This document shows positions 36,512 to 46,786 of a stretch of 64,000 nt of DNA, in pieces; the stretch's first letter is position 1, and the number at the start of each line of letters is the position of its first letter. A program made the translations under genes and the position numbers. The notes under the pieces are model-generated. The model searched no databases. It worked only from the letters and a program-made list of their open reading frames with translations, and was not told the origin of the DNA. Origin of the DNA: Actinoplanes sp. L3-i22 (GTDB lineage Bacteria > Actinomycetota > Actinomycetes > Mycobacteriales > Micromonosporaceae); assembly GCF_019704555.1 (NCBI RefSeq), contig NZ_AP024745.1, positions 2,600,001 through 2,664,000 on the forward strand, in the 5' to 3' direction.

Positions 36512-37081
36512 CTATCGTGGACTCCGGCCGGCGCGGGAACGTTGGACTTGCAGGAGTACACCACTCGCGTTCAGGCGATATCTGGCCATAGGGACACTTA
36601 CCTGATGTTTTTCCGCGATCAGGTCGGGAGTTGAGGCGGCGTATGCCTCTCGAAGCAGCAGCGGCCTGGGTAGAAGCAGGCAGCCGGCGAGCCAGTTCGC
36701 CTCCTCTTCCTGTTCGGGGTTGCAGGTGAAAAAGGTGTGACCGGCAAGCTGCTGAATCTCTCGGATCTCATGGTTGAGGATCACGTGCGCGATTTCATGT
36801 GCAATGTCGCTGTTGGTACGCCCGGTCTCGCTGAGCGGGTTGCAGACGATGACAGTCCGGCCGCCGGGCAGGTGGAACGTCGCCGCCGAGAACGCACCGG
36901 GTTGCAGCTCGTCGAGTTCCTCAAGGTCTGCACGGTCGACGAGATCGTCGGCGGGATGAATCTCGATGTGGAGATGCGCCGCGAGCTTGCGGATCGGCAT
37001 ATGGGCGTGCGGTTGAAGCCCGAGCTCAACCCGGGTGCGGTCGGCCAGTCTTTCAGCCTCGGTCTTAAAACCTCTTCGCAT
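36512..37081 (-). CDS. ImmA/IrrE (M78)-family metallopeptidase, CapP-like
   Basis: A 189-aa zinc peptidase from ATG 37081 with GAGG upstream. The active site is HEIAH (His95, Glu96, His99), with acidic residues at EQEEEANWLA (about 124-131) supplying the third ligand, as in ImmA/IrrE enzymes. It lies 34 nt downstream of an XRE repressor gene on the same strand, and the pair is divergent from a CBASS operon. Known CapP proteins cleave the CapH repressor on sensing DNA damage and so release CBASS expression; this pair fits that role. The assignment to CapP rests on context and family, not on a diagnostic residue. Confidence 0.78.
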   Translation of the reverse strand: MRRGFKTEAERLADRTRVELGLQPHAHMPIRKLAAHLHIEIHPADDLVDRADLEELDELQPGAFSAATFHLPGGRTVIVCNPLSETGRTNSDIAHEIAHVILNHEIREIQQLAGHTFFTCNPEQEEEANWLAGCLLLPRPLLLREAYAASTPDLIAEKHQVSVPMARYRLNASGVLLQVQRSRAGRSPR

Positions 37082-37115: not shown

Positions 37116-37574
37116 TCATGGCATGGATTCCAGCTTCTGCTGCATCTGTTCAAGCAGGCCGGAGAGTTTGCGTGAGGCTTCTGGCTTGAACGTCGCCGAT
37201 GCCCGAAGGTGCACGCGTATCGGCCGTTCCACAGTGGCGAAGCTGGTGTACAGCTCGCGGACAAGCCCGGCGATCTTCTCGGCAGCCGCATCAGTCAGGT
37301 TCGGGTCCCGGGCAAGGTGGTGCGCGATCAGCTCCGGGGTGTTCTCGGTCCGAATCCGAGGCGGCTGGAAGAACCGCTCAGGCGACAGGCCGAGCCAGTG
37401 CACGATGCGCCGGAAGTTCGCGAGGTCGGGAAGGTCACCCTTCTCTACACGCGCCAACGTGTTGAACGGCACTTCGGCCTGCTCGGCTGCGACACGCAGG
37501 CTAAGACGGCCTCGCTTGAGGCGCTCGGCATGCACGAGCCGTCCCAACAGTTCGATGTCGATCGGGTCGCTCAC
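37116..37574 (-). CDS. XRE-family repressor, CapH-like
   Basis: A 152-aa protein from ATG 37574 (GGAGGTG upstream). Residues about 12-65 form an HTH (LVHAERLKRGRLSLRVAAEQAEVPFNTLARVEKGDLP); the rest is a helical region ending in a coiled-coil-like tail (LSGLLEQMQQKLESM) that may dimerise or be cut by the neighbouring peptidase. It is first in a two-gene unit with the M78 peptidase and faces the CBASS operon across 250 nt holding a dyad over a predicted promoter. Repression of CBASS and of itself is the likely role. Confidence 0.75.
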   Translation of the reverse strand: MSDPIDIELLGRLVHAERLKRGRLSLRVAAEQAEVPFNTLARVEKGDLPDLANFRRIVHWLGLSPERFFQPPRIRTENTPELIAHHLARDPNLTDAAAEKIAGLVRELYTSFATVERPIRVHLRASATFKPEASRKLSGLLEQMQQKLESMP

Positions 37575-37716: not shown

Positions 37717-37824
37717 CTTCCGCGTCAAGCGTAGCTCGACGCGTCTGCGCGTCGGGCTACGTCCATGCGCCAGCCGACGCGGGAGGGGTGTCAGCTGGCG
37801 CTCGTTGCAGATTTGGGGGGAACC

Positions 37825-38739
37825 ATGACGCACAGTCTTCGCGGGTCAGAAGTCCGGCGGCTGCCGGACGAGGCGGCACCAGGGGTAGCTGATACGCGGC
37901 TGTTGCCGAACGACGCCTTCGCCGCCGCCTGGTCGGCGATCGTGTTGCCGGACGGGATGAAACAGCGGTTGCTACGGACGGCGGTCGCCGAAGCGCATCT
38001 GCGCGCGGCAGTTCCGTTCGACGCGCTGCCGCTTCACGGGGTCATTCTGCTCACGGGCAAACCCGGCGTCGGCAAAACGACGATGGCACGGGGTCTGGCC
38101 AACCAGGTGGCCCGCACCATCCCGACCGCTTCCGAGTGGTTGTTCGTCGAGGTCGATCCGCACAGCCTCGCCAGTTCGTCGTTGGGACGCAGTCAGCGCG
38201 CGGTGGAGCAGTTGTTCGGCACCCTGCTTCACGAACACGCCGCCGTCGGCCCGATGATCGTGTTGCTCGACGAGGTGGAGACCCTGTTCACCGACAGGGC
38301 AGCGCTGTCGATGGAGGCTAACCCGATCGACGTGCACCGGGCGGTAGACGCCGCGCTCGTCGGGCTCGACCGACTCGCCCGGCGCCACCCGCAAATGCTG
38401 ATCCTGGCGACGACTAACTTCAGCGACGCGCTCGACCCCGCGCTGGCCTCGCGCGCGGACTGGATCGTCGAAGTACCGTTGCCGGATCGCGCTGCCCGGC
38501 GACAGATTCTCGAACTCACCGCTGCGGCGGTCGCCGCCGCGTTCCCCGGAGCGAGTCGGCTGCTGGAACCCGCGCTGCTGGACGCGGCGGCTAAGGACTC
38601 GGAAGGCCTCGACGGCCGCCGGCTACGCAAAGCCGTCGCCGCCGCCTGCGCCTACCGGCCGGAGGTGCAGGGCGATCCCGATCGGGTTACCGGCCAGGAT
38701 CTGCTGGCGGTACTACGCGATGAAGGCGGTCACCGATGA
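37825..38739 (+). CDS. cap6: CBASS TRIP13/Pch2-like AAA+ ATPase (Cap6)
   Basis: A 304-aa AAA+ protein from ATG 37825 with GGGGGG 4 nt upstream; the longer frame to 37765 is unlikely. Walker A is GKPGVGKTT (78-86), Walker B MIVLLDEVE (144-152), sensor 1 ATTNFSDALD, with the arginine-finger region SRAD after it. In type III CBASS this ATPase opens the closed HORMA protein and so turns the nucleotide cyclase off. It is first of five plus-strand genes that all overlap by 4 nt (here ATGA with the next). HORMA and cyclase genes downstream make the assignment secure. Confidence 0.88.
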   Translation: MTHSLRGSEVRRLPDEAAPGVADTRLLPNDAFAAAWSAIVLPDGMKQRLLRTAVAEAHLRAAVPFDALPLHGVILLTGKPGVGKTTMARGLANQVARTIPTASEWLFVEVDPHSLASSSLGRSQRAVEQLFGTLLHEHAAVGPMIVLLDEVETLFTDRAALSMEANPIDVHRAVDAALVGLDRLARRHPQMLILATTNFSDALDPALASRADWIVEVPLPDRAARRQILELTAAAVAAAFPGASRLLEPALLDAAAKDSEGLDGRRLRKAVAAACAYRPEVQGDPDRVTGQDLLAVLRDEGGHR

Positions 38740-39206
38740 GCGTCGCATCACGGCAAGTGCCGTCCGTGCCTGTACGCACGTCGGTCTCGACCTGGAACAC
38801 GATCATCGACCTTCTCACCCCACCGGGTGCCAGCGCTCGCACTGACTTGGTGGCGGTCACGAGCACAGTGGCCATGCTGATCGCCGAGGAGTACACCGGC
38901 GAGGCTCCCATCGTGGTGATGCCAACCGCGGGAGACCGGGTACGGGTCTACACGCTGCACGGCTCCGCCGCAGTCGAAGGCGAGAACCCAGCGGCCCTGG
39001 CGACCTGGCCACTGGCCGAGCCTGGCTGGCGAATTTCGCTACCGTGCGGCGCGGTCGACCTAGACGAGGCCCGTGCCGCGTTGGGTTCCTATCCGCATTT
39101 CGAGGTTCGGGACCTCACCGAAGGCATCGCCACGGTGAGTGCGGTGTCGCAGCAAGGAGCCAGCGAACGTGTCGTGATCGACTACACGGAACTGGAGCGA
39201 TCGTGA
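38736..39206 (+). CDS. Unrecognised conserved-position protein inside the CBASS operon
   Basis: A 156-aa protein I do not recognise. It starts at ATG 38736 inside the stop of the ATPase gene and ends inside the start of the HORMA gene (GTGA), so it is fully coupled to the CBASS operon. The sequence has an N-terminal Ser/Val-rich stretch, a helix (ARTDLVAVTSTVAMLIAEEY), then mostly beta-like segments (APIVVMPTAGDRVRVYTLHG, WRISLPCGAVDL, FEVRDL). No membrane segment, signal or nuclease motif. Some type III CBASS loci carry a second HORMA protein at a similar place; this one shows no clear HORMA pattern, though a divergent copy is possible. It could also be a sensor or partner of the HORMA protein. 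Confidence 0.75.
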   Translation: MSVASRQVPSVPVRTSVSTWNTIIDLLTPPGASARTDLVAVTSTVAMLIAEEYTGEAPIVVMPTAGDRVRVYTLHGSAAVEGENPAALATWPLAEPGWRISLPCGAVDLDEARAALGSYPHFEVRDLTEGIATVSAVSQQGASERVVIDYTELERS

Positions 39207-39724
39207 CCACGGCCGTACGCGTCAACACCCACGCTCACGCGACCACGCATGTCGCGACGAACATGCTGCGCGGGATGAAGCAGATCATCCAGCAGAGCGG
39301 CCTGAGCATCACCAAGATTCGGGGTCAGTGGGAGGTGCTGGAGGCCGGTATCGCTGCGTGGCTCAACTCCGGCCACCTCAAAGGCCTCGTGCTGGAAATC
39401 TACGACCCGGGTAAGCGCGTTGGTGACGATCTAGTAGGACGATTCGACTTCACCATCGACTACAGCTACTACGGCGACGGCGACGGCGAGTTGTGGCTGG
39501 ACCCGGACACCGTCTCCTACACGGTGCTCAAGAACGGCTCCTACCCGTCGCGCTGCAACTACCGGCTGATCGCCGACACCGCCCCCGGTTACCCGTCGGT
39601 GGACGGCTGGTCCAATACCACTCTCCGCTCGACCGCCGGGTTCACCCGGCACTCCGTCGGGACCGCCATCGGCGGCGGCAGCCTCGGCGCTGGCCTGCAC
39701 TACTACACCAGGAGCAACGGATGA
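39203..39724 (+). CDS. cap7: CBASS HORMA-domain protein (Cap7)
   Basis: A 173-aa protein from GTG 39203. The sequence TTHVATNMLRGMKQIIQQSGL, then 'WEVLEAGIAAWLNSGHLK' and LEIYDPGKRVGDDLVGRFDF is that of the bacterial HORMA-1 type proteins found in type III CBASS. The Gly/Ser-rich C-terminus (SVGTAIGGGSLGAGLHYYT) would be the mobile safety belt. On binding a target peptide it closes and activates the cyclase; the Cap6 ATPase reverses this. It overlaps its neighbours by 4 nt at both ends (GTGA and ATGA). Confidence 0.85.
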   Translation: MTTAVRVNTHAHATTHVATNMLRGMKQIIQQSGLSITKIRGQWEVLEAGIAAWLNSGHLKGLVLEIYDPGKRVGDDLVGRFDFTIDYSYYGDGDGELWLDPDTVSYTVLKNGSYPSRCNYRLIADTAPGYPSVDGWSNTTLRSTAGFTRHSVGTAIGGGSLGAGLHYYTRSNG

Positions 39725-40617
39725 TCAGCGTCAACGACGCGTTTTACAAGTTCCGCACCAACCTGGAGACCACCGCCAGCGAGGATGCGTCCGCGAGCGC
39801 CCGACAGAAGCGTATCCGTGAACAGCTCGACGCCGACGACACCCTCGACATCATCCGGGACTTCCTCACCGGCGCCTATCGCCGGCACACGAAGACCAAA
39901 CCGCTGCGTGACGTCGACATCATGATCGTGCTGGGCAACACCGAATACCTCGACAGGCATCCCCACGACATCCTCGAAGTCGTCCGGGCCGCCCTGGTCC
40001 CCTACTACGGCGAAGCTCGTGTCATCTGCGACCGGCGCGCCGTCCGGGTGGACTTCGGGGTCCGCGTTGTCGACGACGTCAGCGACGCTGACGAGGTGGT
40101 GTCGTTCGACGTCGTACCCGCCTTCGTCAACGGCGACCACTACCTGATCCCCGATGACGTCACCGGGGAGTGGGTGCACACCAACCCAGAACTGCATCGC
40201 GAGGCGGCTCGGGACGCCAACGGGGCCTTCGCGGAGCAGTGGAAGCCTCTCGTCAAAATGATCAAGAAGTGGAACGAGATCGCTGGCCATCCGGTCGAGC
40301 CGTCCTTCCTCATCGAAGTGATGGCCCTGGAACTAATCACCGGGCCGTGGACCGGCAGCCATCCTCGAGAACTCCGGCAGTTCTTCGCCAGCGCCGCCAG
40401 CCGCATCGACGAGGGCTGGCCCGACCCGGCCCATATCGGGCCCGACATCTCCGACGTCTTAGACGGTGACAAGGTGAAGATGAACAATGCCCGCACGGCA
40501 CTGCGCACGGCTGAGGCCGCCTGCACGGTAGCGATCAACCTCGACCGGACCGGGCGCACCGGCGAGGCCCTGAACGCCTGGCGTGCCCTGTTCGGACCGC
40601 TGTTCCCGCTCTCGTGA
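39721..40617 (+). CDS. CBASS CD-NTase (cGAS/DncV-like nucleotidyltransferase)
   Basis: A 298-aa cyclase. The nucleotidyltransferase core is intact: GAYRRHTKTKPLRDVDIMIVL gives the G(S/A)YxRxT motif at 51-57 and the metal ligands Asp64 and Asp66, with the third acid probably Asp130 (VSFDVVPAF). It should make a cyclic oligonucleotide after activation by the HORMA protein. The clade (C or D are usual with HORMA) and product cannot be told by eye. The start ATG overlaps the HORMA stop, and its own stop overlaps the effector start. Confidence 0.9.
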   Translation: MISVNDAFYKFRTNLETTASEDASASARQKRIREQLDADDTLDIIRDFLTGAYRRHTKTKPLRDVDIMIVLGNTEYLDRHPHDILEVVRAALVPYYGEARVICDRRAVRVDFGVRVVDDVSDADEVVSFDVVPAFVNGDHYLIPDDVTGEWVHTNPELHREAARDANGAFAEQWKPLVKMIKKWNEIAGHPVEPSFLIEVMALELITGPWTGSHPRELRQFFASAASRIDEGWPDPAHIGPDISDVLDGDKVKMNNARTALRTAEAACTVAINLDRTGRTGEALNAWRALFGPLFPLS

Positions 40618-41546
40618 CGGGCACACCACAGGCCCGGCCCGTGCCCGAAGGATCGTCGGCCCGCATCACCCAGCGCCAGGATGAGTCGCAGCACCTCGAC
40701 CGGCTACTCGCCTATAGCCGCGATTTCCAGATTGCCCACCGCTGGCGCCGCGCCCGCGCCCTCGGCACGTTCGCTCTTGCCGCGGTCGGCCCGTTCATAT
40801 CGTTGTTCTTCCCTGCCACCACGGATCTTGTCGCCGCCATCAGCGCCGGATGGCTTGTTCTCGGCCGGACTCTGCTGACCGGAATGGAACAACGAGCCAC
40901 CCAGCACGCCGCCCGAGTTCAAGAACTATACGACACCAACCTCTTCCACATGCCCTGGAACACCGCACTCGCCGGCCGCAAACCCGCGCCCGAAGATGTG
41001 GCAGCCTCCGCCCGCCACATCACCGACGACAGCAACTACCGCAACTGGTACAGCGTCGACCTCGGCACCACCCCCTGGCCCGCCGACGCACTGCTCTGCC
41101 AGCGCCAAAGCATGGTGTGGAGCCGCCAGGAACACCGCGCCTACAGCGCCACCATCCTCACCACTGGTGTGATCTGGTTCATCATCGGACTCGCCATCGC
41201 CCTCGTCAGAGACATCAGCCTCGCCGACTACTTGATCAAGATCTTCCTACCAAGTGCCCCAGCATTCCTCGACACCATCGAACTCGCTCGACAGCATTGG
41301 CAACACTCGAATGCACGACAGCAGGCAGAGCATAAGATCGACGATCTTTGGCAGGCGTACATCGCCCGGCCGGACGCACTCGCCATCAGTGACTGCCGTC
41401 AGGTCCAGGACGCAGCCTTTCTACTGCGCCGTGACGGACCTCGAGTACCGAACCTGTTTTACAAAATCCGCCGGGCGAAATCGGAAGCCAATACGAAAGC
41501 CGGAACTGTAGCCCTGCTGAGTGAAGGCAGTGCTAAGCATCCATGA
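40614..41546 (+). CDS. CBASS effector, S-4TM family putative pore-forming protein
   Basis: A 310-aa membrane protein from GTG 40614. Two hydrophobic hairpins (about 43-83 and 180-225) give four membrane helices (GTFALAAVGPFISLFF, AISAGWLVLGRTLL; AYSATILTTGVIWFIIGLAIAL, YLIKIFLPSAPAF). The linker carries VQELYDTNLFHMPWN, typical of S-4TM effectors. It should bind the cyclic nucleotide made by the preceding enzyme and breach the inner membrane, killing the infected cell. Last gene of the overlapping operon. Confidence 0.85.
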   Translation: MTGTPQARPVPEGSSARITQRQDESQHLDRLLAYSRDFQIAHRWRRARALGTFALAAVGPFISLFFPATTDLVAAISAGWLVLGRTLLTGMEQRATQHAARVQELYDTNLFHMPWNTALAGRKPAPEDVAASARHITDDSNYRNWYSVDLGTTPWPADALLCQRQSMVWSRQEHRAYSATILTTGVIWFIIGLAIALVRDISLADYLIKIFLPSAPAFLDTIELARQHWQHSNARQQAEHKIDDLWQAYIARPDALAISDCRQVQDAAFLLRRDGPRVPNLFYKIRRAKSEANTKAGTVALLSEGSAKHP

Positions 41547-41637: not shown

Positions 41638-41991
41638 ATGGAATCACGCCTGACAGAAATGAACCGCATACTCGCAGCTCAAAGGTCAATCGTGACCTTA
41701 ACAGCTATCCGCGAACGCACTTGCTTGCCGATCTACCACATGTCGTCGGCGATAGCGCAGCTACGATCGGAAGCCTCTCACGGTTGGTTCGGTCCGCGGG
41801 CAAAGCGATTACGCCTGTCTCCCCCCATTGAATCTCATAGAGCCATCGACTGGGGTGCGCCATGGGGATCTAGCGGCGCGGAGGTGTGGTGGACCAAAGA
41901 GCGGATCTTCAGCGGCTTGCGGTCTCCGGTCCGGATGATCCCTTTTTCGAGCAGTGGTATCAATGATCGGATCACGTGTTCTGGCCGGTAG
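41638..41991 (+). pseudogene. Possible gene remnant, homologous to the fragment at 35.1 kb
   Basis: From ATG 41638 the frame reads MESRLTEMNRILAAQRSIVT, LTAIRERTCLPIYHMSSAIA, then QLRSEASHGWFGPRAKR. The first 65 residues look natural and match the 35097-35168 fragment. The rest, beyond about 41835, is antisense to the TcmP gene and unlikely to be real, so the gene is probably truncated. It lies just after the CBASS effector, 91 nt from its stop. Function unknown. Confidence 0.35.
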
Positions 41992-42962
41992 ACGGTCTCG
42001 AAGAGTGTGAAGGTGCGCAGGTCTTGGACGCTAGTTGGTCCGTTTTCCCGTAACTTCCGTTCGAGTAGACGTGTCAGGGGGCCGAGGATCGGTTCGTCGA
42101 TGTCGAAGAGGGTTTCGGCTTGTTCGTCTCGCGGGTCGCGGAAGCCGACGCCTTGGACGGGGTCGACTTCCCACAGGCTGTCTTTCATCTTCTGCACGCC
42201 GAGGGGGTGCCCTGTGCCGAAGACGAGGTAGAGCGGCTGGCCGTGCCGGGGAACGAGCTCGAAGTCCAGCAGGTATTTGAATCCAGCGGTCTTGAGGGTC
42301 TGGCGGTAGCAGGTCAGGATGTGTCGGCTCTTTGCTGCGGGCGCCAGGTCGGTCACGGTTCGCCAGGTGGGGTCACCTCCGAAGAGTTCGTCGCCGGCCT
42401 CACCCATGTCGCTGACGAACCGGACGAAGTGCTGAGGGAAGAAGGTGACGATGACTTCGCTGGACACGTTCGTCGCGAGACGTTTGAGGAGACGGTAGGG
42501 AATCGGGGCATTTCCCCATGAATCAAGATTGGCGAAGATCGGCTTGCCCCAGGCGTGCATCCCGTCCAGGGCTGCTTCGAGATGGTCCTTGCAGGTGCCG
42601 GTGACGACTTTGACCGGCATCGCATCCTCGGATCGTGGCCGCTTCGGGAAGGTCTCTTTCAGCGTCTTGTTGAGCAGGTCGGTGCATCGCTTGTCGTCAT
42701 CGACGAAGATGATCCGCGCGACCCCTTTGTCCGCTGGGACTTGGCTGGTGAGAGCCTTGATGGCGACAATGGGAGAGCCAAACTCTCCGCCACTGTAGAT
42801 GCCGGGGCCGGAGAAGCCCTCGGCATACGTCACTGACGGCCACGGCTTCGATCGGCGGTTCAGGAGGATGGGGAACCATCGCTCCAGATAGCGACGGTAG
42901 ATGTCGTGCTTGGCGCCTGTGTGCTCATCGCGTTTCCACGGCACGTCGCCTTTGACCGGCAT
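41835..42962 (-). CDS. tcmP: Three-Cys-motif partner protein TcmP
   Basis: A 375-aa protein whose start KRDEHTGAKHDIYRRYLERWFPILL followed by YAEGFSGPGIYSGGEFGSPI matches the TcmP family, soluble proteins always found near a three-Cys-motif (Gp37/Gp68-like) protein. The N-terminal half has a Rossmann-like, methyltransferase-like pattern (TYAEGFSGPG, RIIFVDDD). The C-terminus looks like a winged helix (TLFETVYRPEHVIRSLI). Its partner is encoded 91 nt upstream on the same strand. The pair occurs in phages and defence islands; biochemical role not known to me. Confidence 0.82.
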   Translation of the reverse strand: MPVKGDVPWKRDEHTGAKHDIYRRYLERWFPILLNRRSKPWPSVTYAEGFSGPGIYSGGEFGSPIVAIKALTSQVPADKGVARIIFVDDDKRCTDLLNKTLKETFPKRPRSEDAMPVKVVTGTCKDHLEAALDGMHAWGKPIFANLDSWGNAPIPYRLLKRLATNVSSEVIVTFFPQHFVRFVSDMGEAGDELFGGDPTWRTVTDLAPAAKSRHILTCYRQTLKTAGFKYLLDFELVPRHGQPLYLVFGTGHPLGVQKMKDSLWEVDPVQGVGFRDPRDEQAETLFDIDEPILGPLTRLLERKLRENGPTSVQDLRTFTLFETVYRPEHVIRSLIPLLEKGIIRTGDRKPLKIRSLVHHTSAPLDPHGAPQSMAL

Positions 42963-43053: not shown

Positions 43054-43809
43054 TCATGCCGGCGCGATGGAGGCCCGGCGAGGCATGGCTGAGTGTTTGC
43101 GCCCGTCGAGGTCACGTCCACCGGCCTTCGGCGTCCGCCCGCCCCATTGCTTGAAGAAGAATGCAGTTCCAGAGGCTTCACATTGATCGCGGATCCCTCG
43201 TACCCAATCTGGATCCATCGGCCGGCAGTTGCTCCCGGACTCACCGCCGACGATCAGCCAGTCGATCCCAGTCAGGTTGAGAGCGGGAAGGGGGCCGAGC
43301 AGCGGTTCGGCGGAGACGAACAGCACGGCTGCGGGTACACCCCGCAGCTCATCGACTCTGCTCAACTGGTCAACGCTCTCGACGCTGACCCCCATCCATA
43401 CGTTCGGCGGCCAGTCGAGAAGCGGGGCGACCTTCGCGAGTCGAGCCGCGCGTTTGGTGAGTACCTGGTAGGTATGCCGGGGCGTCTCTCGCATGACATC
43501 GAATACCTGACTGACATAGTCCAGCGGAACCCGCGCGTGGAACAAGTCGGACATGGAGTTGACGAAGACGACGCGTGACTCCCGCCAGCGACGGGGAATG
43601 TCCAAGGCGTCGCGGTGAACTGTGACTCCGAAGCCTGGGCCCGATGTTCGGGGGTCGCCGTCGGCTTGGTACTTAGCGGACCCCATGGCCTTCAGCCTCT
43701 TGGCAAGGGAGAGGGCGTAACAGTTGTCGCACCCGGGTGAGACACGGTCACATCCGGTCGTCGGGTTCCATGTCGCCTCGGTCCACTCGATGCTGCTGCG
43801 GTCTGCCAT
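43054..43809 (-). CDS. Three-Cys-motif phage Gp37/Gp68-family protein
   Basis: A 251-aa protein beginning SSIEWTEATWNPTTGCDRVSPGCDNCYA, with Cys20, Cys27 and Cys30 forming the CX6CX2C motif that resembles a radical-SAM iron-sulfur site. The following VTVHRDALDIPRRW, VFVNSMSDLFHARVP and 'WMGVSVES' blocks are typical of the Gp37/Gp68 (DUF5131) family. It is probably an iron-sulfur enzyme working with the TcmP protein encoded downstream. It lies between the CBASS operon and a type I restriction system, in keeping with a mobile or defence role. Confidence 0.83.
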   Translation of the reverse strand: MADRSSIEWTEATWNPTTGCDRVSPGCDNCYALSLAKRLKAMGSAKYQADGDPRTSGPGFGVTVHRDALDIPRRWRESRVVFVNSMSDLFHARVPLDYVSQVFDVMRETPRHTYQVLTKRAARLAKVAPLLDWPPNVWMGVSVESVDQLSRVDELRGVPAAVLFVSAEPLLGPLPALNLTGIDWLIVGGESGSNCRPMDPDWVRGIRDQCEASGTAFFFKQWGGRTPKAGGRDLDGRKHSAMPRRASIAPA

Positions 43810-43947: not shown

Positions 43948-45435
43948 CTACAGCTGATCCACCCCCGTGGCCGCCTCCAAAGCGGCGGCGACGGCTTCGA
44001 ACTCGACGAGCGCGGCGGTGAGATCCTCAACGATCTCGCGGGCTATGACCTCGGGGGCGGGCAGATTGGCCATGTCTTCGAGAGACTCGTCACGAAGCCA
44101 GGTGATGTCGAGGTTGGTCTTGTCGCGAGCGATTAGCTCGTCGTACGTGAAAGGCTTGAACCGTTCGGTTTCAACTCGCTCGGAGCGGAGTTTTCCCGGC
44201 AGGTAGCTGGCGACGAAGTCGTCAAGGTGGGTCCGGCGCAGCGGGTTCTGCTTCAGGGTGAAGTGCTGGTTGGTCCGCAGGTCGTAGATCCACAGCCGGT
44301 CAGTCCAGGGACGTTCCGCGGCGGGCTTTTTGTCGAAGAACAGCACATTGGCCTTGACACCCTGGGCGTAGAAGATCCCGGTGGGCAGCCGCAGCATGGT
44401 GTGCAGGTCGAAGTCGTGGAGCAAGCGACGGCGCAGAGTTTCGCCGGCACCGCCCTCGAACAGCACGTTGTCGGGAAGAACCACCGCAGCGCGACCGTGG
44501 ATAGCGAGAATGGTGGCGATGTGCTGCACGAAGTTGAGCTGCTTGTTGGCGGTGGTGACCCGGAAGTCGGTGCGGGAGATGGCCCGCTCCTCGCCGGCCT
44601 CCCGACCGTCCGCACCGACCATCGTCAAGGACGACTTACGGCCGAACGGCGGGTTCGACAGCACGACTGAATAGCGGTCACCGGGGTCGGCGATCAAGGC
44701 ATCCTTGACGTCGATGAGGCTGTCCCCGGTGGGGGTGCCGATGCCATGCAGCAGCAGGTTCATCGCGGCGAGCCGGGCAGTGCCATCCACCAGCTCGACG
44801 CCGTGCACAAATCCGTCACGCAGGTGAGTGCGTTCGGCCGGGGTCAGAGTTTCGGCGTTGCGGGCAGCGTGGTCGTGAGCTGCGAGCAAGAACCCACCGG
44901 TCCCCGCTGCCGGGTCGACCACGGTGTCACGAACGGTCGGGCGTACGCAGTCAACCATCGCCTGGATGACCGCGCGCGGCGTGAAGTACTGCCCGGCGCC
45001 GGACTTGATGTCCTCGGCGCCCTTGGACAACAGTTCCTCGTACGCGTCGCCCTTGACGTCCGTGCCGGTCGCCGACCAATTCTCCTTGTCGATCAGGTCC
45101 TTGATCAGGCGCTTGAGCTTGGACGGGTCCTGGATGCGGTTCTGCGCCTTGCGGTAGATCGTGCCCAGCGTGCCGGGCTGCCGCGCCAGCTCCTCCAGGA
45201 TGTGACGGTAGGTGACTTCCAGGTCATCACCTTCGGCGTCGAGTAGCCGCTGCCACGAGCAACTCTCGGGGACGATGCGTTCCGGTCGCAGCGGACGAGT
45301 TTCCCGCTCATGAGCCATCTTCAGGAACAGCAGGTATGTCAGCTGCTCGGTGTACTCAATCGTGCCTACCCCATCGTCGCGGAGGACGTGGCAGTACGAC
45401 CACAACTTGTCTACAAGCCGCCGCGCCTCAGACAC
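43948..45435 (-). CDS. hsdM: Type I restriction-modification DNA methyltransferase subunit HsdM
   Basis: A 495-aa N6-adenine methyltransferase. GTG 45435 was chosen because GAGGAG lies 7 nt upstream; TTG 45450 is less likely. The N-terminal HsdM helical domain (ARRLVDKLWSYCHVLRDDGV) is followed by the SAM site DPAAGTGGFLLAA and catalytic NPPFG. With HsdS it methylates host DNA; with HsdR it forms the restriction complex. Last gene of hsdR-hsdS-hsdM, overlapping hsdS by 8 nt. Confidence 0.93.
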   Translation of the reverse strand: MSEARRLVDKLWSYCHVLRDDGVGTIEYTEQLTYLLFLKMAHERETRPLRPERIVPESCSWQRLLDAEGDDLEVTYRHILEELARQPGTLGTIYRKAQNRIQDPSKLKRLIKDLIDKENWSATGTDVKGDAYEELLSKGAEDIKSGAGQYFTPRAVIQAMVDCVRPTVRDTVVDPAAGTGGFLLAAHDHAARNAETLTPAERTHLRDGFVHGVELVDGTARLAAMNLLLHGIGTPTGDSLIDVKDALIADPGDRYSVVLSNPPFGRKSSLTMVGADGREAGEERAISRTDFRVTTANKQLNFVQHIATILAIHGRAAVVLPDNVLFEGGAGETLRRRLLHDFDLHTMLRLPTGIFYAQGVKANVLFFDKKPAAERPWTDRLWIYDLRTNQHFTLKQNPLRRTHLDDFVASYLPGKLRSERVETERFKPFTYDELIARDKTNLDITWLRDESLEDMANLPAPEVIAREIVEDLTAALVEFEAVAAALEAATGVDQL

Positions 45436-46786
45436 CCGCCAACTCCTCAACCATATCTACGTCACATGCCAGCCCGGTCAACCGCCCGGTAAAGGCCGCA
45501 TCCAGAAGCGACTTACGCAAGGCCTCTGATCGGGCCAAGCTAGACGTCACCTGCTTGGTCAGCCGATCAATGCCGGCGAGCTGATCACTGATTTGTTGCA
45601 CCAACCCCGTCTGCATATCTCGCGGAGGGATCGGCAAAGGCATTAGCCGAATTTTAGACAGGCTGATCGAGGCAAGGTTGGTGGTCTGCTTGCCGTTATG
45701 TTCGGCCCAAGGCGCGCCCAATGTATTCGCCGCCCATGAGAGAAGCCGTGGATCGATCCTATCGTCTCGCACCCGGGCACGGAAGACGTGGTTCTGGTGG
45801 ATGCAATCGTCGATCTGACCCTCCCAGATCCAACCCCGGGCGAGTTTGTCGCGGTCTCCGCCTTCGTTAAGTAGGACATCGCCGGGCTTCAGCCGAAGCG
45901 CAGCGGCTTTTGACGGAGCGACCCGGATCGTGGCAACGTAGTCCAGCCTGAGGTGGCCACGTTGAACATTCGCCACCCTCAAGTAAGGAACCTCAACGAA
46001 TGCCGGATCGTCCTGTCGCTTAGAGTCTTTCGTAACCCCGCCAACGACATCAGCGACATCAGCGAGTCGTAGCCATTGCCAGCCGTTAGGCAAAAGGGGG
46101 AAGGCCCCGTCATCCACGCCGACCTCAGGCGGCAAACGATGCTCGCGCGGGCCGGGAAGATTTGCCCCAGTCAGGGCTTCGCGCAGAAAAGCCTCACGTA
46201 ACGCTGAAAGCCTTCGCGTCGAACGAATGAGTCCGGCTTCGGCGGCATCGAGTCTCGAAAGATGGTCTTCAAGAATATCAACGATTCGCCGCTGTTCTGA
46301 AATGTCTGGGAAGCTGAAAGGAATGCTACGTACATCGCCTCCAGCGATCCCGGACTGCCCAGCTGTCGTTTTAATCCGAGGCTCAAGGAAGCTGCGCACG
46401 GATTGCGATTCCAGATATAAAGCAGCAAATCGACTGTCGATTACGTCAGGCCTTAAAACTACCCTTATCAACTTGTCAGGATGCAATAACGGTCCAGCAT
46501 GCTTCGGGACTAGCGCACACCTGCCGACCAGGTCCCGGCTGCCGTTGTAGCGCGTAAGGAGAAGATCGCCGGGATCAATAGAAAACTTCGCTACCGTCTC
46601 CGCTTCGATCCCGTCGACGTATTTACGAGCAGTCAAGTCCAGCCTTCCGCCCTTAACCGCCGAGATGCGAAGGATCGGAATTCCTCCTGGCTCGTCGGAC
46701 GGCCGTCGCGCGAAAATGCCGTTGCGAATCGAAATGGCGATATTGCCCAAATTGTCGGTGCGCCATCCGGCCGGAAGGGTGTTCAT
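45428..46786 (-). CDS. hsdS: Type I restriction-modification specificity subunit HsdS
   Basis: A 452-aa specificity subunit with two target-recognition domains (about 5-190 and 225-410), each ended by a long helix (ISEQRRIVDILEDHLSRLDAAEAGLI; DMQTGLVQQISDQLAGIDRLTKQV) that sets spacing of the two half-sites. Parts of the gene are less GC-rich than the neighbours, as expected for recognition domains that recombine between lineages. It overlaps hsdR by 4 nt (ATGA-type) and hsdM by 8 nt. The DNA target cannot be deduced by eye. Confidence 0.92.
   Translation of the reverse strand: MNTLPAGWRTDNLGNIAISIRNGIFARRPSDEPGGIPILRISAVKGGRLDLTARKYVDGIEAETVAKFSIDPGDLLLTRYNGSRDLVGRCALVPKHAGPLLHPDKLIRVVLRPDVIDSRFAALYLESQSVRSFLEPRIKTTAGQSGIAGGDVRSIPFSFPDISEQRRIVDILEDHLSRLDAAEAGLIRSTRRLSALREAFLREALTGANLPGPREHRLPPEVGVDDGAFPLLPNGWQWLRLADVADVVGGVTKDSKRQDDPAFVEVPYLRVANVQRGHLRLDYVATIRVAPSKAAALRLKPGDVLLNEGGDRDKLARGWIWEGQIDDCIHQNHVFRARVRDDRIDPRLLSWAANTLGAPWAEHNGKQTTNLASISLSKIRLMPLPIPPRDMQTGLVQQISDQLAGIDRLTKQVTSSLARSEALRKSLLDAAFTGRLTGLACDVDMVEELAGV

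Follow-up and report, generated by a model that had tools for sequence, protein, structure and literature searches.

Here, we describe a five-gene type III cyclic-oligonucleotide-based antiphage signaling system (CBASS) operon, and in particular its second gene, in a 64,000-nucleotide (nt) stretch of the Actinoplanes sp. L3-i22 genome (NZ_AP024745.1, positions 2,600,001 to 2,664,000, forward strand; the whole stretch is referred to as the window). The second gene (38736..39206, +) encodes a 156-amino-acid (aa) protein and is real. It is preceded by a TRIP13/Pch2-like AAA+ ATPase gene (37825..38739, +, with a further in-frame ATG at 37765; PADLOC TRIP13 PDLC00915, E value 3.9e-120; Pfam AAA, E value 2.6e-20), whose Protein Data Bank (PDB) matches include Pch2 (4XGU, E value 9.5e-25), with VCP-like ATPases scoring slightly higher. 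It is followed by the main HORMA gene (bacHORMA_2, a relative of Pseudomonas aeruginosa HORMA2; 39203..39724, +, GTG start; Pfam PF18173, E value 2.9e-58; PDB 6P8S chain A, E value 5.1e-33, and also 6P8R and 6P8O), the gene for the CBASS oligonucleotide cyclase, a cGAS/DncV-like nucleotidyltransferase (CD-NTase; 39721..40617, +; NCBIfam NF041117, 307 bits against a cut-off of 200; SMODS and CBASS_cyclase_b in library scans; PDB 6P8U chain A, E value 4.3e-79, and also 6P82 and 6P8J), and an S-4TM membrane effector gene (40614..41546, +, GTG start; Pfam PF18159, E value 1.3e-85; PADLOC 4TM effector, E value 5.5e-64).

In the sequence and its open reading frames, all four junctions between these plus-strand genes are 4-nt overlaps (ATGA, GTGA, ATGA, and GTGA). 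An earlier note on this DNA, made from the sequence alone, had described five such overlapping genes, and this arrangement is confirmed; its gene labels agree with Pfam and PADLOC. The note had also concluded that the second protein is made with the system in a fixed ratio; the overlaps do suggest translational coupling, but they do not set stoichiometry.

The 156-aa protein is a diverged second HORMA protein of a type III (2-HORMA) CBASS. PADLOC HORMA model PDLC00881 covers residues 1 to 155 (E value 5.5e-28). A database protein search returned 65 relatives at an E value of ≤0.001, which are 34 to 87% identical to the window protein, except for P0011, which is counted among the 65 but is the window protein itself, starting later. 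All 65 carry PF27322, an accession absent from the local Pfam results for the window protein. The window protein was aligned with 31 of the 65 relatives; all 32 sequences match PDLC00881, and the profile of the alignment, searched against the PDB, recovered exactly two sequences at an E value of ≤10, namely, 6P8P chain A (E value 4.9e-32) and 6P8S chain C (named HORMA1; E value 2.4e-29), both from P. aeruginosa. The predicted fold is likewise that of a HORMA domain, with 38% identity to the solved relative (structure prediction with a Foldseek-limited match list).

The protein appears unrecognised because it has no match in the local Pfam or NCBIfam libraries; to this extent, the earlier note's remark that it bears no recognisable motif stands, although the PADLOC and PDB matches are strong. 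Among the identities that the note proposed, PADLOC, the profile match to P. aeruginosa HORMA1, and the predicted fold all support a divergent second HORMA protein. The note's other proposals, a HORMA ligand, a sensor of infection, or an inhibitor, may or may not apply to it. The claim of a new part of a known defence system, which by the note's own account would be undone if the protein matched a known HORMA family with confidence, falls with that match: the family is in PADLOC, two of its structures were solved in 2019, and the 2-HORMA layout is already a named subclass. The protein thus belongs to a known family and is no new component. A wholly new family was rejected on the same PADLOC, PDB profile, and fold results, and an SseB-like protein was rejected for want of any search supporting it. 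A new kind of protein unrelated to HORMA (an inhibitor or infection sensor) could be argued from the empty local Pfam and NCBIfam scans and from one source's name for a relative, but is refuted at the sequence and fold levels by PADLOC, the PDB profile, and the fold, and by the single Pfam accession PF27322 on 65/65 relatives, and we regard it as highly improbable. The name in question, "SseB protein N-terminal domain-containing," looks like a misannotation.

Gene order is conserved with the family. Distinct loci numbered 18, comprising the window, L002 to L007, L009, L010, and nine plasmid records (L012 to L020) from Rhizobium (two), Agrobacterium, Polaromonas, Tistrella, Methylobacterium, Pseudosulfitobacter, Shinella, and Sulfitobacter; L002 and L008 were counted once, as were L003 and L011, and two contig-scan loci were likewise not double-counted. 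The order TRIP13, 156-aa-type gene, HORMA2, CD-NTase was found in 18/18 (in L004, the second-HORMA gene was detected by profile search, not by tblastn). Whether homologues always sit between ATPase and HORMA genes was a check suggested in the earlier note; the absence of homologues from other CBASS operons, which it had weighed as a contrary outcome, was not seen. Because loci were sought starting from the second-HORMA gene, 18/18 means that the gene never lies outside the operon among the fetched loci, and a count of type III operons without the gene is not derivable from it. The second HORMA and HORMA2 genes overlap by 4 nt in all 17 measured loci (the window and 16 others); the TRIP13 and second HORMA genes overlap by 4 nt in 12 of the 17 and by 1 nt in the other 5. 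Gene contact is therefore conserved, and the exact 4-nt overlap with the ATPase gene is not. The second-HORMA gene is rare, occurring in 8/354 genomes of the family and 2/396 of the phylum sample (own genome included in both), with one copy in the own genome. By tblastn, S-4TM lies downstream in L001, L002, and L005 to L010, which are those actinobacterial loci that extend to this position; a DUF6602 gene takes its place in the seven annotated plasmid loci, and the only one of these tested, in plasmid operon L013, matched PADLOC NucC (E value 4.6e-111). For annotation, the "hypothetical protein" whose gene is flanked by those for TRIP13 and HORMA, both in Micromonosporaceae and on proteobacterial plasmids, can now be named a second HORMA protein.

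The window holds every gene of a 2-HORMA type III CBASS, that is, a CD-NTase, a TRIP13/Pch2-like ATPase, a main HORMA protein, a second and distinct HORMA protein with the predicted HORMA fold, and a known effector, and antiphage activity via a cyclic oligonucleotide would be expected of the operon from its class. PMC9122588 tallies "Type III (1-HORMA)" and "Type III (2-HORMA)" apart and describes a cyclase regulated by peptide-binding HORMA proteins and Trip13; the single-HORMA E. coli system listed there (cdnC, cap7, and cap6) has CD-NTase, HORMA, and TRIP13 modules in common with the window, but one HORMA gene where the window has two. PMC10419184 mentions CBASS operons with HORMA2 and HORMA3, and PMC10002423 uses cap8 for two-HORMA systems. 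Naming thus varies among sources, and the window protein's relative is HORMA1 in the PDB. The nearest characterised counterpart is that HORMA1 (6P8P and 6P8S), from the 2-HORMA type III CBASS of P. aeruginosa ATCC27853, to which the window protein is orthologous in kind at 38% identity.

In CBASS of this type, the main HORMA protein closes on a peptide and switches on the CD-NTase, the resulting cyclic oligonucleotide triggers the effector, and TRIP13 reopens the HORMA protein. By the same chain, the main HORMA protein of the window would activate its CD-NTase on closing around a peptide, the cyclic oligonucleotide would open or trigger the S-4TM membrane effector, and the TRIP13-like ATPase would reopen the main HORMA protein. 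The second HORMA protein is modeled as a short domain, ordered over about 130 residues and showing no C-terminal safety belt; order is predicted up to about residue 130, and 130/156 residues are visible in 6P8P chain D. A belt that orders only upon binding may also fit this pattern.

We place the probability at roughly 0.7 that the second HORMA protein pairs with the closed main HORMA protein and regulates the CD-NTase, preferably as an adapter like p31comet. Pairing side by side with the peptide-closed main HORMA protein is most likely by analogy with 6P8S, in which the P. aeruginosa relative shares a crystal with HORMA2 and a peptide (source paper, Ye et al. 2020). Such pairing would regulate how the closed HORMA protein activates the CD-NTase, and the preferred role, by eukaryotic analogy only, would be to present the closed HORMA protein to the TRIP13-like ATPase for reopening. 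The precedent, p31comet, is itself a HORMA protein. In eukaryotes, it is TRIP13's adapter for closed MAD2 (PMC4439613). The short domain with no visible belt, the cocrystal with HORMA2 and peptide, and this precedent together make an adapter or restraining role the most likely one. Three points weigh against this explanation as a whole: no p31comet entry was among the structural matches in the Foldseek-limited list, the solved relative shares only 38% of residues with the window protein, and adjacency to the ATPase gene could stem from operon history alone. The likeness to Mad2, p31comet, and TRIP13 of the spindle checkpoint, at 6 to 7% identity in structural alignment, is one of analogy for the adapter role.

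The main rival to this regulatory role is a positive one, in which the second HORMA protein would serve the main HORMA protein as a scaffold or template, aiding it in closing on its peptide or in holding the CD-NTase. Its model is the spindle checkpoint, where open Mad2 pairs with closed Mad2. We consider it possible, if on the unlikely side.

A further alternative concerns the C terminus. Residues 131 to 150 (39126..39185, +) form a low-confidence linker (predicted local distance difference test score of <50; high column entropy, with a mean of 2.74 bits over positions −12 to −25 from the C terminus), and the protein ends in IDYTELERS (39177..39203, +), a candidate short linear motif; the nine C-terminal positions have a mean entropy of 1.23 bits. 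The linker behind the ordered domain spans 20 to 33 residues in the 48 of 51 nonredundant members that were measured. Most of the window's family ends in (I/V)(D/N)YxE(L/M)ER(S/P), the plasmid relatives end in forms such as LDPKGFLGS, and the solved P. aeruginosa protein ends in LDLGGFLKS, which is of the same shape. A loose pattern, [ILVF][DN]xxx[LFM] with one to three residues after it, fits 64/66 family members (all but P0064 and P0023, a C-terminally partial record) and 9/9 plasmid relatives; after removal of near-duplicates, it fits 49/51, against a mean of 0.16 and a maximum of 2 among shuffled tails of the 51 (500 rounds).

This linker, predicted to be disordered, and the conserved, widely shared tail would suit a built-in ligand, with the tail serving as a closure peptide that holds the main HORMA protein poised or autoinhibited until an infection-derived peptide displaces it. 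Several results count against it. The pattern was written after the sequences had been viewed, so the shuffle control is generous; P0059 is among the 64 fits, yet its end looks unrelated, and L004, outside the motif counts, ends in VIDLTRL followed by six residues and does not fit. The last codons of the second-HORMA gene also contain GGAG just 5′ of the HORMA2 start in eight actinobacterial loci, probably the ribosome-binding site of the next gene, so translation may account for part of the tail's conservation; columns −7 to −9, upstream of this likely site, nonetheless average 1.27 bits versus 2.74 for the linker. Finally, the HORMA1 chain in 6P8S is 133 residues long and lacks the tail, which is invisible in 6P8P too, and the crystal complex therefore does not need it. 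A built-in ligand is an unlikely reading, to be ranked below the co-factor role. Its boldest form, in which the tail on its flexible linker is the system's own decoy ligand, phage detection is competition for the closed HORMA protein, and the second HORMA protein is both partner and ligand, we hold to be doubtful and speculative. If the tail did prove to be such a ligand, this would be relevant to how 2-HORMA systems distinguish infection from quiet. The literature searched yields no account of the tail; Ye et al. 2020 lay outside that search, hence no novelty is claimed for it.

Natural fusions were sought with a joined two-HORMA query, which returned seven proteins; two span both families by Pfam, and another includes the CD-NTase family as well. 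P0066, P0067, and P0071 show no tail motif at their junctions, which look frame-shifted; for this reason, none was folded to probe tail docking. One protein, P0068 (470 aa), carries the bacHORMA_2 and S-4TM Pfam domains together and apparently arose by a deletion that fused HORMA2 to the effector through a leftover piece of the CD-NTase start.

Upstream of the operon lies a putative regulator pair. A divergent helix-turn-helix (HTH) regulator gene (37116..37574, −) is CapH-like by position only (Pfam HTH_31, E value 1.3e-4, below its cut-off) and has no PADLOC match; this neighbour is kept in those family loci that reach that far. Beyond it is a CapP-like ImmA/IrrE-type metallopeptidase gene (36512..37081, −; Pfam Peptidase_M78, E value 1.2e-17; PADLOC capP, E value 1.2e-12), whose capP match is partial (21 to 149 of 242 profile positions); both scans were run on 36512 to 37078, one codon short of the ATG. 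A stronger capP match (E value 2.7e-55) sits at the matching place in L013. The pair suggests CapH-CapP-like control by DNA damage, a mechanism described in PMC13373217. On three Rhizobiaceae plasmids (L012, L013, and L015), a small DUF2188 gene separates the regulator pair from the ATPase gene, and that of L013 (3260 to 3496) matches PADLOC PDC-S16 (E value 6.3e-34).

Downstream, three minus-strand genes (41835 to 42962, 43054 to 43809, and 43948 to 45450) match the PADLOC candidate defence families PDC-M30A (E value 2.4e-37) and PDC-M41B/M30B (DUF5131), as well as a type I methyltransferase, and the surroundings of the CBASS operon are, judged from these gene matches, a defence island.
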